Origin: Zoogloea sp. 1C4
GTDB taxonomy: Bacteria; Pseudomonadota; Gammaproteobacteria; Burkholderiales; Rhodocyclaceae
Direction of reading: 5' to 3'
Length of the DNA stretch: 64,000 nucleotides
NCBI RefSeq assembly: GCF_009469605.1
Contig: NZ_SSXU01000005.1
Coordinates: 141,857-205,856, forward strand
The notes below the pieces were generated by a model. That model saw only the letters and a list, made by a program, of their open reading frames with translations, ran no database searches and was not told where the DNA came from. Of the stretch, positions 1,695 to 20,828 are shown in pieces (the stretch's first letter is position 1; each line of letters begins with the position of its first letter). Both the position numbers and the translations under genes were made by a program.

Positions 1695-1797
1695 CGGGGG
1701 AGGGCGCCGGGTTTGGTCGGGCCGGCCAGTTGTGATAAAAGGGCGTGTTTTCCGTGGCCTGCCCGGGCCACGTGTGTTCCGCTCTGCGAGGCCCTCG

Positions 1798-4278
1798 TTG
1801 TCCCAGCCTTCTTCCCCGTCGTCGCCGTCCCAAGTGCCCACCCGCGAGCACGACTGCTACCACTGCGGTCTGCCGATTCCCGATGATGTCGATCTCGCCG
1901 TCGATATCGAAGGCACCCCCCACCACATGTGCTGCACGGGCTGCCAGGCAGTGGCCCAGTCCATCGTCAGCAGCGGCCTGATCGACTACTACCGGCGCCG
2001 CGACGCGATGCCCGAGCAGGCCCGCGAGGCGATGCCCGACGAGCTGAAGGATCTCGGCCTCTTCGATCATCCGGATTTCCAGCAGGGCTTCGTCAAGCCC
2101 ATCGGCGAACACGAGCGCGAAGCGGCGCTGATCCTCGAAGGCATCACCTGCTCTGCGTGCATCTGGCTCAACGAGCAGCACGTGGCCCACCAGCCCGGCG
2201 TCACGGCGGTGGACATCAACTACGCCACCCGCCGCGCCCGGGTGCGCTGGGACGAGCGCAAGATCAAGCTCTCCGACATCCTCGCCGCCATCCAGGCCAT
2301 CGGCTACCGGGCCTATCCCTATGACTCGGCCCGCTCCGAGCAGATTTCCCAGCGCGAGCGCCGCGCGGCCCTGTGGCGACTGTTCGTCGCCGGCTTCGGG
2401 ATGATGCAGGTGATGATGTACGCCTTCCCGGTGTACATCGCCGACGGCGACATGACCGCCGACATCGAGTCGATGATGCGCTGGGCGAGCCTGATCCTCA
2501 CCGCGCCGGTGGTGCTGTATTCCGCCGCGCCTTTCTTCAGCCACGCCTGGCGCGACATCAAGCTGCGCCGGCTGGGCATGGACGTGCCCGTCGCGCTGGG
2601 GGTCGGCGCGGCCTTCGTGGCCAGTTGCTGGGCCACCTTCATCGGCAAGGGCGAGGTGTACTTCGATTCGGTGACGATGTTCGTGTTCTTCCTGCTGTGC
2701 GGCCGCTACGTGGAAATGCTGGCCCGCCAGAAAGCGGTGCGCGGCGTGGAGGAGCTGGGCAAGGCGCTGCCGGCCTTCGCCGAACGCCTCAACCACTGGC
2801 CTGATCCGGAAGGCGAGCGCGTGCCGGTGTCGCAATTGCAGGCCGGCGACATGATCCGCGTGAAACCGGGCGAGACCGTGCCGGCCGACGGCATCGTGAC
2901 CGAGGGCGAGAGCGAGGCCAACGAGGCGCTCCTCACCGGCGAGAGCCGTCCGGTGCCCAAGAAGCCCGGCGCCCAGGTGACCGGCGGCAGCGTGAACATC
3001 GGCAGCCCGCTGTGCGTGCGGGTCACCCGTACCGGCGAGCACACCCGCCTCGCAGCAATCCGCCAGCTGATGGAGCGTGCTTCTGTCGAGAAGCCCCGCG
3101 TCGTCCAGCAGGCCGACCGGGTGGCGGCCTATTTCATCGTCGCGCTGCTGGTGCTCGCGGTGATCACCGCCGGCTGGTGGTGGTGGCACGACCCCGATCG
3201 CGCCCTGTGGGTGTTCGTCTCGGTGCTGGTGGTGAGCTGCCCCTGCGCGCTCTCGCTGGCCACGCCGGTGGCGCTTACGGTGGCCACCGACGCGCTGGCG
3301 CGGATGGGGGTGCTGGTCACCCGCGGCCACGCAATCGAAGCCCTGGCCCGGGCCGATCATTTTGTTTTCGACAAGACCGGCACGCTCACCTACGGCGAGA
3401 TGCGCGTCGAGCAGATCCGCCTGCTGGGGCAGAGTGACGAGATGGACGCGCTGCGCCTTGCCGCCGGCCTGGAGCAGGGCTCCGAGCACGCCATCGCCGA
3501 GGCCCTGCGCCGGCGCGGCGGCGGCCTGGTGGTGCCGGCTTTCGGCAACGTGGCGGCAACGACGGGGCAGGGCGTGGCCGGTGTGCTGGATGGCGTCGCC
3601 TACCGCATCGGCCGTCCTTCTTTCGTGGCCGAGCTGGTGGGCTCGCCCGAGCCGGAAGCGCTGCTGGCCGACGAGCGCTCCGGCCGCACCGTGATCGCGC
3701 TGGGTTCGGCCGCGGGCTGGATCGCCGGCTTTGCCCTGTCCGACGGGCTGCGGGAGGATTGTCCGGCGGCGCTGGCCTCGCTGCGCGACAAGGGCATCGA
3801 CCTGTCGATCCTGAGCGGCGACACCCCGGCCACCGTCGAGGCACTGGCCCGGGAGCTGGGCATCGCCAATGCCCGGGGCGGCATGACTCCCGAAGGCAAG
3901 CACGCCGCGCTGCGTGCGCTGCAGACCGAGAACGCGATCGTCGCGATGGTCGGCGACGGCGTGAACGACGCGCCGGTGCTGGCCCAGGCCCAGGTTTCCA
4001 TCGCGATGGGCGGCGGCACCGACCTCGCCCGCAATCAGGCCGACATCGTGCTGCTGTCCGGCCGGCTGTCGTCCCTGGCGGAAGGGCTGGATCTCTCCCG
4101 TCGGGCGCTCAAGATCATCCGCCAGAATCTCTGGTGGTCGTTCGCCTACAATTTCACCGCCGTTCCCCTCGCCATGTCCGGGCTCGTCACGCCTTGGATG
4201 GCCGGGATCGGCATGTCGGCGAGTTCGCTGTTCGTCGTCCTCAATGCCCTGCGCCTCCAGCGCGGGCGCCAACGCTGA
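1798..4278 (+). CDS. ccoI: Copper-translocating P1B-type ATPase CcoI (FixI), cbb3 oxidase assembly
   Basis: Exports copper across the inner membrane for assembly of cbb3-type cytochrome oxidase. The TTG at 1798 is chosen because a GCGAGG ribosome site lies 6 bases upstream; a GTG at 1732 would add 22 residues without one. With this start the protein has 826 residues. N-terminal cysteines (DCYHCG at 19-24 and CCTGC at 45-49) form the extra metal-binding region typical of FixI/CcoI. A heavy-metal domain follows with CSAC at 118-121 (commonly CxxC). The membrane metal site CPC is at 481-483, the phosphorylated Asp in DKTGT at 525, and GDGVND at 719-724. All catalytic motifs are intact. ccoS follows 9 bases later. 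The oxidase genes ccoNOP are not in the window. Confidence 0.93.
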   Translation: MSQPSSPSSPSQVPTREHDCYHCGLPIPDDVDLAVDIEGTPHHMCCTGCQAVAQSIVSSGLIDYYRRRDAMPEQAREAMPDELKDLGLFDHPDFQQGFVKPIGEHEREAALILEGITCSACIWLNEQHVAHQPGVTAVDINYATRRARVRWDERKIKLSDILAAIQAIGYRAYPYDSARSEQISQRERRAALWRLFVAGFGMMQVMMYAFPVYIADGDMTADIESMMRWASLILTAPVVLYSAAPFFSHAWRDIKLRRLGMDVPVALGVGAAFVASCWATFIGKGEVYFDSVTMFVFFLLCGRYVEMLARQKAVRGVEELGKALPAFAERLNHWPDPEGERVPVSQLQAGDMIRVKPGETVPADGIVTEGESEANEALLTGESRPVPKKPGAQVTGGSVNIGSPLCVRVTRTGEHTRLAAIRQLMERASVEKPRVVQQADRVAAYFIVALLVLAVITAGWWWWHDPDRALWVFVSVLVVSCPCALSLATPVALTVATDALARMGVLVTRGHAIEALARADHFVFDKTGTLTYGEMRVEQIRLLGQSDEMDALRLAAGLEQGSEHAIAEALRRRGGGLVVPAFGNVAATTGQGVAGVLDGVAYRIGRPSFVAELVGSPEPEALLADERSGRTVIALGSAAGWIAGFALSDGLREDCPAALASLRDKGIDLSILSGDTPATVEALARELGIANARGGMTPEGKHAALRALQTENAIVAMVGDGVNDAPVLAQAQVSIAMGGGTDLARNQADIVLLSGRLSSLAEGLDLSRRALKIIRQNLWWSFAYNFTAVPLAMSGLVTPWMAGIGMSASSLFVVLNALRLQRGRQR

Positions 4279-4287
4279 GATCGGATC

Positions 4288-4476
4288 ATGGAAAGTCTTT
4301 ATCTGCTCATCCCGCTGTCCATCGTCCTGGTCTTCCTGATCGGCGTCATTTTCTGGTGGTCGGTGCGGAGCGGGCAGTTCGACGACCTGGAAGGGCCGGG
4401 CTACCGCGTCGTCAGCGACGACGACGATCCGCCGACGCAGGCCCGGGAGAAGAGCGTCCCGAAGGCGGGCGACTGA
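4288..4476 (+). CDS. ccoS: Cytochrome cbb3 oxidase assembly protein CcoS
   Basis: 62 residues with one N-terminal membrane helix (about residues 5-26), then the conserved WWSVRSGQFDDLEGPG block and an acidic tail (SDDDDPP), which together define CcoS. It is required with CcoI for cofactor insertion into cbb3-type oxidase. It lies 9 bases after ccoI on the same strand, the usual ccoIS arrangement. Here ccoN does not follow: the next 364 bases carry no gene, and the following gene is ndk. Confidence 0.93.
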   Translation: MESLYLLIPLSIVLVFLIGVIFWWSVRSGQFDDLEGPGYRVVSDDDDPPTQAREKSVPKAGD

Positions 4477-4507
4477 GCTGGAAATCTCCACGCTATCTGA
4501 AGGGTTT

Positions 4508-4549
4508 TTGACCCAAATCAATTCTGCCCCCAGGGGCGTCGTGCATACT
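4508..4549 (+). promoter_or_regulatory. FNR/Anr-type box and -10 of a class II anaerobic promoter
   Basis: TTGACCCAAATCAA at 4508-4521 matches the FNR/Anr dyad TTGAT-N4-ATCAA at 9 of the 10 conserved positions. A -10-like hexamer CATACT lies at 4544-4549. With the box centred at -41.5, the classic class II FNR position, +1 is base 4556 and the hexamer falls exactly at -12 to -7. No gene follows directly; the promoter points into the non-coding RNA candidate that ends at the 4665 terminator. FNR control is inferred from the site alone. Confidence 0.65.
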
Positions 4550-4555
4550 CGATTC

Positions 4556-4665
4556 CAAGTTGAAGACGCAAGTGCGAGCAAGAACTAGTGTCTTCCAGGC
4601 ATCACTGCCTGTGGCTTAAGTCTCTCTGTTGGGGTTGGGGGTGCGCGATGCGCACCCTTTTTTTT
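4556..4665 (+). ncRNA. Candidate FNR-controlled trans-acting small RNA
   Basis: The 364-base gap between ccoS and ndk has no convincing reading frame but carries a complete small-RNA architecture. After the FNR-type promoter, a 5' stem pairs GAAGAC (4562-4567) with GTCTTC (4590-4595), with the alternative inner hairpin CGCA/TGCG. A second stem pairs CAGGCA (4596-4601) with TGCCTG (4606-4611). Next comes a probably single-stranded stretch (about 4612-4636) containing TCTCTCT at 4621-4627, complementary to purine-rich ribosome sites. It ends in a perfect terminator. The predicted 110-nt length and layout resemble the Hfq-dependent FnrS RNA of enterobacteria, with no claim of homology. hfq is encoded 9 kb downstream. 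Expression is inferred. Confidence 0.5.
4639..4665 (+). terminator. Strong intrinsic terminator between ccoS and ndk
   Basis: Perfect 8-bp stem GGGTGCGC (4639-4646) and GCGCACCC (4650-4657), 3-base loop GAT, followed by eight T (4658-4665). It separates ccoIS and the small-RNA candidate from ndk. Confidence 0.9.
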
Positions 4666-4781
4666 GCCTCTTCGCCCCCATATCCCCTTGGTTGCGCATC
4701 CGGCGCCCGTCCCCTGTCGGCGCGTCGCGCGCCGTCCATCGTCGTGGCAATGCCGAAAAACGCCGATCTGACGCACCAACC

Positions 4782-4790
4782 TGCTAAAAT
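4782..4790 (+). promoter_or_regulatory. Extended -10 element upstream of ndk
   Basis: TGCTAAAAT gives an extended -10 (TGn plus TAAAAT at 4785-4790), 50 bases before the ndk ATG. No good -35 hexamer is seen at 16-18 bases, which is common for extended -10 promoters. A CGGAG ribosome site (4827-4831) precedes the start. Confidence 0.45.
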
Positions 4791-4840
4791 TCCAAGCTTT
4801 CGGTTTTTCGACCATCCTTTGTCTCACGGAGTCCTGACTC

Positions 4841-5266
4841 ATGGCTATTGAACGCACCCTTTCCATCATCAAGCCCGATGCCGTCGCCAAGAACGTGATC
4901 GGCCAGATCTACGCCCGTTTCGAAGGCGCCGGCCTGAAGGTCATCGCCGCCAAGATGGCGCACCTGTCCGAGCGCGAAGCCGGTGAGTTCTACGCCGTGC
5001 ACAAAGAGCGCCCCTTCTTCAAGGATCTGGTTTCCTTCATGACCTCCGGCCCGGTGATGATCCAGTGCCTGGAAGGCGAGAACGCCATCGCCAAGAACCG
5101 CGAGCTGATGGGCGCCACCGACCCGAAGAAGGCCGACAAGGGCACCATCCGTGCCGACTTCGCCGAGTCCATCGACGCCAACGCCGTTCACGGCTCCGAC
5201 GCGCCGGAAACCGCTGCTGTGGAAGTTGCCTTCTTTTTCCCCGGCATGAACGTTTACAGCCGTTGA
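4841..5266 (+). CDS. ndk: Nucleoside diphosphate kinase
   Basis: 141 residues, full length for bacterial Ndk. It transfers the gamma phosphate of ATP to nucleoside diphosphates through a phospho-histidine, balancing NTP and dNTP pools in the cytoplasm. The N-terminus [15 protein letters not shown] and the active-site block [12 protein letters not shown], with catalytic His117, are unmistakable. The ATG has a CGGAG ribosome site 9 bases upstream and an extended -10 promoter. It heads the run rlmN-pilW-rodZ-ispG-hisS, a conserved order in betaproteobacteria. Confidence 0.97.
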
Positions 5267-20474: not shown

Positions 20475-20559
20475 TGGTGCCCAGAAGAGGACTCGAACCT
20501 CCACGCCTCGCGGCACTAGTACCTGAAACTAGCGCGTCTACCAATTTCGCCATCTGGGC
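20475..20559 (-). tRNA. tRNA-Leu (CAG), copy 1
   Basis: Read on the minus strand, an 85-nt class II tRNA with a 7-bp acceptor stem (GCCCAGA/TCTGGGC), discriminator A and encoded CCA. The anticodon arm CTAGT-TTCAGGT-ACTAG gives anticodon CAG. The variable arm is long, and GGTTCGAGTCC forms the T arm. CTG is the dominant leucine codon in this GC-rich sequence. Identical to the copy at 20744-20828. A TATAAT lies 13 bases upstream of its 5' end. Confidence 0.96.
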
Positions 20560-20743: not shown

Positions 20744-20828
20744 TGGTGCCCAGAAGAGGACTCGAACCTCCACGCCTCGCGGCACTAGTACCTGAAACTA
20801 GCGCGTCTACCAATTTCGCCATCTGGGC
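20744..20828 (-). tRNA. tRNA-Leu (CAG), copy 2
   Basis: Identical over all 85 bases to the copy at 20475-20559, including the encoded CCA and anticodon CAG. Shared sequence runs from the terminator through the tRNA, but the spacers differ, so the duplication is old or has been kept identical by gene conversion. It diverges from rnr, whose start lies 34 bases from the tRNA 5' end. Confidence 0.96.

Follow-up and report, generated by a model that had tools for sequence, protein, structure and literature searches.

The DNA analyzed here is a stretch of 64,000 nucleotides from Zoogloea sp. 1C4, referred to below as the window. A gene for a P-type ATPase (1732..4278, +), identified by its Pfam domains and called ccoI-like from its place before ccoS, is followed by ccoS itself (FixS, PF03597; 4288..4476, +). 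The downstream neighbor is ndk (PF00334; 4841..5266, +), which occupies this position in Zoogloea only. The gap between ccoS and ndk had been reported as free of genes in a preliminary description of the locus, and the open reading frames across it were found to be only mechanical, with none that explains the region. Within this gap we predict a small RNA of approximately 109 nucleotides (4556..4664, +), the start of which was placed by the spacing of an upstream box and −10 element and the end by a run of T. The gene for Hfq (PF17209; 13946..14134, +), a possible partner, lies outside the locus.

An FNR/Anr-type box, TTGACCCAAATCAA, was found at 4508..4521 (+, center 4514.5), and a −10 element, CATACT, at 4544..4549 (+), with 4/6 identity to TATAAT. 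The position of the −10 element and the centering of the box at −41.5, the spacing of a class II promoter, together put the predicted transcription start near 4556. Both elements had been claimed beforehand and held up: the box matches 9 of 10 half-site bases and is conserved in relatives, where the class II spacing of the −10 element is also kept. By itself, the box is weak; three matches with at most one mismatch were found in the 64-kb window versus 0.58 expected, and this number was reached in 4 of 100 shuffles. The box stands above chance because it is conserved: a DNA search of 100 relatives yielded matches in 48, all among the 60 that belong to the same family, versus none of the 40 from other families. 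The in silico evidence supports a promoter of the FNR type, with class II spacing before the −10 element.

Folding of the predicted transcript placed hairpin 1 at 4562..4595 (+) and hairpin 2 at 4596..4611 (+), followed by a near-invariant core, TCTCTGTTGGGGTTGGGG (4623..4640, +), of which the G-rich half is the proposed seed. An intrinsic terminator (4637..4664, +), with a stem, a loop in the GAT region and eight T, has a 5′ arm that overlaps the end of the core. The structured segment of approximately 110 nucleotides with a perfect eight-T terminator that had been described was recovered, with a 10-pair stem and the T run at 4657-4664. Terminator-like matches by themselves prove little, as seven were found in 12 kb versus 6.0 expected from shuffles; the terminator of the RNA ranks at the top of these. 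The fold z-score of the RNA region, −1.97, was modest.

Comparison of 20 distinct Zoogloea transcripts supported three helices, in which 98.4% of cells were paired. Six pairs were changed on both sides, a number reached in 19 of 500 shuffles, while the 24 individual cells changed on both sides were reached in none of 500. The covariation score of the helices was 0.269 versus 0.151 (reached in 0 of 500 shuffles), and was 0.028-0.116 when slid. Further pair types were not raised (12 versus 12.2). The covariation sits in helices 1 and 2, with 4 of 5 counted pairs changed on both sides in hairpin 1 and 2 of 3 in hairpin 2, which bears out the two stem-loops of the preliminary description; the terminator is invariant within Zoogloea. 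Between genera, the inner pairs of the terminator vary with compensation among 90 distinct sequences, locus L148 being the exception, and some copies of the RNA have different terminator stems with the same core.

The same comparisons bear on whether the region could be a small protein-coding gene. Mechanical open reading frames do cross it, for example, at 4588-4851 (+), and the idea is nevertheless highly improbable: the length of core plus terminator ranges from 47 to 54 nucleotides in steps that are not multiples of three only, the 5′ half of the RNA cannot be aligned between genera while the core stays constant, and the variation within Zoogloea preserves the helices. A small open reading frame was rejected on these grounds.

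The distribution of the RNA was examined both in loci selected by the core and in two sets that were not selected by it, namely, the best 30 of the 48 loci matched by the DNA search and the best 30 of 104 CcoS loci ranked by CcoS score. In the first of the independent sets, the core CTCTCTGTTGGGGTTGGGG was exact in 30 of 30 loci, a box was present within 180 nucleotides in 29 of 30 and a class II −10 element in 29 of the 29 with a box. Of 111 family genomes, 104 yielded CcoS, and among the 30 best-scoring of these loci the 18-nucleotide core UCUCUGUUGGGGUUGGGG lay at most 420 nucleotides 3′ of ccoS in 28. Twenty-seven of these copies were exact and one (L211) had one mismatch; all 28 were accompanied by the box and 25 by the −10 element. 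The core was missing 3′ of ccoS in the remaining two family loci (L216 and L221), and none of the 26 loci from other families had it behind ccoS. A search with model R1, which scored 73.5 bits on the copy in the window, likewise found no copy in the 26 other-family loci, L216 or L221, the best chance match having an E value of 1.4 (L230).

A scan of named genomes with the exact 21-nucleotide core gave at least 118 loci, and the genera among the matches listed were Azoarcus, Aromatoleum, Thauera, Denitromonas, Zoogloea, Sulfuritalea, Uliginosibacterium and Hydrogenophilus. Allowing up to two mismatches, the core matched 11 genomes when 399 of the order were scanned (8 of the 11 lie within the family) and 3 when 274 of the class were scanned, one of which was that of the window; the out-of-family matches had no terminator hairpin with a T run. 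A phage origin was rejected, with 0 exact core matches in viral contigs. One match (L134, DYGX01000039.1) lies on a contig from a metagenome-assembled genome labeled Thermoflexus that has the ccoI-ccoS-RNA arrangement of the Rhodocyclaceae and is probably misbinned. Because loci L047-L164 were selected by the exact 21-nucleotide core, and L168-L197 by a portion of its complement, selection accounts for some of the invariance of the core in alignment A1.

Among the 118 core-selected loci listed, a box resembling TTGA-N6-TCAA was present within 180 nucleotides 5′ of the core in 115, and 109 of these 115 also had a −10 element with at least 4/6 identity at the class II spacing. In two of the three loci that lacked a box, L082 and L094, the upstream sequence is just 48 and 44 nucleotides long, and in the third (L087) a box stands 212 nucleotides upstream of the core. 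Absence of conservation had been named as grounds for abandoning the idea of a small RNA, and what was found is that both box and core are kept across the family. The predicted RNA is a family of its own, conserved across the Rhodocyclaceae.

Gene order around the core was equally regular on one side. Within 700 nucleotides upstream, ccoS was present in 113 of the 118 core-selected loci listed; of the five without it, L082, L094, L116 and L162 are truncated, whereas L062 lacks ccoS. Downstream, among the 108 readable loci listed, ccoN came next in 88, ndk in 12 and other content in 8, 5 of which have an FNR-like gene in the same stretch. The usual order in relatives is ccoS, box, RNA, box, ccoN, and a further box lies between the RNA terminator and ccoN in 82 of the 88 ccoN loci. 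The location between ccoS and ndk given in the preliminary description therefore applies to the window in both parts and to the family in only one: ccoS is the constant neighbor, while the other is usually ccoN. By the same token, the statement that no cbb3 genes follow the box is true in Zoogloea and atypical of the listed relatives. A motif search of the window and the sampled quarter of its genome found neither ccoN nor fnr. An element tied to ndk was rejected, as ndk was found only in loci of the same genus.

This arrangement invites the explanation that the element acts in cis within the cco cluster, as a terminated leader or insulator that FNR drives between the ccoGIS and ccoNOQP genes, without any function in trans. 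The frequency of ccoN as the next gene fits such an element, as do several other families in which ccoS, box and ccoN stand directly together, with no core in the 26 loci examined. However, ccoN usually has its own further box past the terminator, and an insulator needs no unpaired near-invariant core. In Zoogloea, ndk stands in the place of ccoN, yet box, core and terminator persist, and the retention of the RNA without ccoN downstream argues for trans action and against a purely cis role. Since sites complementary to the core are also enriched at translation starts elsewhere, as set out below, we regard a purely cis element as unlikely.

One locus of the first of the two sets not selected by the core, the only one of its 30 with no box within 180 nucleotides, departs from the usual arrangement. 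In L025 (G050:C1), ompW (PF03922) lies between the core and an FNR-type box 749 nucleotides upstream, and the core starts 8 nucleotides past the ompW stop codon. The module in L025 is thus the 3′ untranslated region of an ompW mRNA that is probably driven by FNR.

Complementarity to the core was counted at translation starts (−40 to +10) across 1.264 Mb of the genome from which the window comes, approximately a quarter of it, comprising 953 open reading frame genes from a simple caller that picks starts by Shine-Dalgarno strings. Complements of at least 9 nucleotides were found at the starts of 10 genes versus 3.0 for shuffled seeds (reached in 2 of 150), and of at least 10 nucleotides in 5 genes versus 0.86 (reached in 0 of 150). 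The excess was not significant at 8 nucleotides (16 versus 12.7) or at 11 nucleotides (1 versus 0.25, reached in 32 of 150). The 50-nucleotide windows adjoining the starts held 0-3 genes at 9 nucleotides or more and 0-1 at 10 or more, and the antisense strand held 0 and 0. When seeds were block shuffled, the highest counts among 108 controls were 10 genes at 9 nucleotides and 3 at 10 nucleotides.

The G-rich half of the core carries this signal, with at least 10 nucleotides of complement in 5 genes versus 0.52 (0 of 120 reached), while the UCUCUCU half gave 0 genes versus 0.11 at this length. Across the quarter of the genome that was sampled, translation starts carry the complement of UUGGGGUUGGGG more often than expected. 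A free TCTCTCT stretch had previously been singled out as the unpaired region of the RNA; it is indeed unpaired and near-invariant, but it runs on into UUGGGGUUGGGG, and the evidence from targets favors the G-rich half. The seed is likely to be UUGGGGUUGGGG rather than UCUCUCU.

Counts in other sets were mixed. In genome G756, 2 of 279 genes reached 10 nucleotides at their starts versus 0.10 (reached in 1 of 200 shuffles). In G730, which may or may not carry the RNA, 1 of 292 genes did so versus 0.2 (38 of 200 reached), which is no enrichment. Starts from other families gave 0 matches versus 0.06 expected, in 33 genes from 26 loci, a set too small for a genome-wide control. Total counts of 13-nucleotide complements were hardly raised, with at most 28 non-self versus 22 control matches. 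Long near-perfect complements in the window's own genome were considered and rejected, as a 19-mer with up to three mismatches had 2 non-self matches versus 4 for the reversed pattern.

The genes of the window's genome with at least 10 nucleotides of complement encode a methylamine-dehydrogenase light chain, a class II aldolase, ApaG, a B12-binding radical-SAM protein and a Phenol_MetA_deg protein. Among 111 family genomes, 36 contained the pattern CCCCAACAGAG-N(0,28)-ATG, with 44 matches altogether. Of 30 such loci, 15 were the RNA gene itself, and 13 of the other 15 lay just before an open reading frame of more than 100 residues starting at the matched ATG; the genes include erpA (twice), a DsrC-family gene, sodC and an HPPD-type dioxygenase. 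This pattern favors starts because it contains a Shine-Dalgarno-like AGAG and an ATG. With CCCCAACCCCAAC, which is without this bias, 12 of 30 loci were RNA genes and 18 were not, and 7 of these 18 lay at starts (L170, L171, L176, L180, L183, L193 and L197), including a YceI gene of the window's genome. Four coding-internal matches to CCCCAACCCCAAC (L184, L186, L191 and L192) fall on the peptide motif FPNPNAPTG, in proteins that by eye look like HisC-type aminotransferases; these are a coding coincidence and were not counted as targets.

Genes for PF03640 lipoproteins are preceded by a 14-nucleotide site in G756 and a 13-nucleotide site in G023, the two genomes in which this candidate first came up. 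Of 61 family genomes, 27 had the domain, and neither of the two Zoogloea genomes searched for it did; in a 140-genome sample of the order it was present in 28, one of which belongs to the Rhodocyclaceae. When 27 family starts were compared with 27 from other families, the longest match averaged 6.15 versus 4.70 (p = 4e-4) and the duplex energy −24.5 versus −18.2 kcal/mol (p = 1.7e-5), although these p values ignore relatedness and are inflated by the kinship of the genomes. The observed gap of −6.3 was reached by 0 of 200 shuffled cores (mean gap −1.2, standard deviation 0.9). The discovery locus L419 (G023) and the duplicate L476 were dropped from this comparison, and the set contained neither L472 nor G756; the family set may include genomes without the RNA, and some starts are probably misassigned.

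For erpA, present in 61 of 61 genomes, 30 loci had a mean duplex energy of −19.5 versus −18.1, a value reached by 2 of 200 shuffled cores. The site occurs in some genera only and is absent in Zoogloea, and erpA was rejected as a universal target. No target common to all genera was found among the candidates examined. Within the sampled part of the window's genome, a methionine sulfoxide reductase gene (PF01625; G000:C64:349602, +) had a predicted duplex energy with the core of −29.4 kcal/mol, among the twelve strongest.

These counts also weigh on the alternative that the role of the G-rich core is to engage a partner, either a protein or an RNA, rather than to pair with mRNA, and that it works as an RNA sponge, by protein titration or as a two-copy G-quadruplex. 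The element GGGGUUGGGGG has a very high G content and hardly varies, and one sampled genome, G730, is without start-site enrichment, as such a role would allow. The enrichment of sites in the window's own genome and before PF03640 genes follows antisense pairing instead, and action through a partner has, in our judgment, a small probability.

No Rfam family reached its cutoff on the RNA region, and membership in a known Rfam family was rejected. The best match, SorY (Rhodobacter), scored 24.1 bits (E = 0.0096), far under its 111-bit cutoff. GcvB carries a G/U-rich seed that pairs with C/A-rich sites near starts, and the unpaired G/U-rich seed of the Zoogloea RNA is proposed to pair in a similar manner. 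However, the GcvB match was 16.7 bits versus a cutoff of 42, and promoter, size and gene context differ from those of GcvB. Elsewhere in the window, Rfam searches returned an anti-hemB match (RF02837; 53313-53397, −) of 70.7 bits against a cutoff of 49.5, and two tRNA genes (20478-20559 and 20747-20828, −) of 54 bits each, approximately 190 nucleotides apart and possibly a duplication.

A functional similarity to FnrS without visible homology had been suggested. The Rfam model of FnrS had no match at gathering score in the window, nor up to an E value of 1 in 4400-4900, and the likeness is one of proposed working only. As in Escherichia coli FnrS, the promoter is of the FNR type, here by its sequence, and anaerobic silencing of oxidative-stress and respiratory functions is proposed. 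The Zoogloea RNA differs in its gene neighborhood and in a proposed G-rich seed directly 5′ of, and overlapping, the terminator. Reported FnrS targets include sodB, iscR and sdhA (PMC10993149). The betaproteobacterial AniS, or gonococcal FnrS, of Neisseria is described as FNR controlled, Hfq dependent and made in oxygen limitation, and as U-rich just 5′ of its terminator, where the Zoogloea RNA is G-rich (PMC11912907). In the literature covered, which takes in few subscription journals and includes PMC6456745 and PMC3110155, we found no report of this RNA and no account of a small RNA that ties oxygen to gene control in the Rhodocyclaceae, although a report may exist. The best model is that of a new RNA family that would work in the manner of FnrS and AniS, apparently without belonging to either.

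Collectively, the promoter elements, conservation, gene order, hairpin covariation and start-site enrichment, all read from sequence, make it probable that 4556-4664 encodes an FNR-activated, trans-acting antisense RNA that blocks ribosome binding on mRNAs of aerobic and oxidative-stress functions. Under oxygen limitation, FNR of the Anr type would bind the box at −41.5, and transcription would start near 4556 and end at the intrinsic terminator, giving a genus-variable structured 5′ half followed by the near-invariant core. The G-rich UUGGGGUUGGGG would then pair with C/A-rich elements resembling CCCCAACCCC that lie at the Shine-Dalgarno sequence of the mRNA or immediately 5′ to it. Pairing would block ribosome binding and probably speed decay, probably with Hfq; repression as the direction of control is what we infer. 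Probable targets are the PF03640 lipoproteins in relatives and, in the window's own genome, YceI and the methylamine-dehydrogenase light chain, with sodC, erpA and others as further probable targets in some relatives. Candidates that would recall the logic of FnrS are superoxide dismutase, the Fe-S carrier, the PF03640 lipoproteins, methionine sulfoxide reductase and aerobic catabolism, which may form a common theme; the ApaG and phasin candidates fall outside it. The earlier reading as a regulatory small RNA was thus largely right, since promoter, separate RNA gene, covarying hairpins, terminator and conservation are each supported in silico and an hfq gene is present in the window.

More tentatively, the RNA may have arisen inside the ccoN control region and become a global trans regulator, the post-transcriptional arm of FNR in the Rhodocyclaceae, that silences lineage-variable aerobic and oxidative-stress mRNAs, with the L025 copy turned into an ompW 3′ untranslated region; we hold this possible, though somewhat short of an even chance. 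If it is true, the switch to high-affinity respiration would also silence lineage-variable mRNAs of aerobic and oxidative-stress functions. In wastewater and in sediments, the Rhodocyclaceae (among them Zoogloea, Thauera, Azoarcus, Aromatoleum and related genera) are of major importance as denitrifiers and as degraders. With its fixed position, near-invariant seed and named candidate targets, the RNA makes post-transcriptional oxygen control directly testable in this family, and it suggests how a trans-acting RNA can arise within a respiratory gene cluster.
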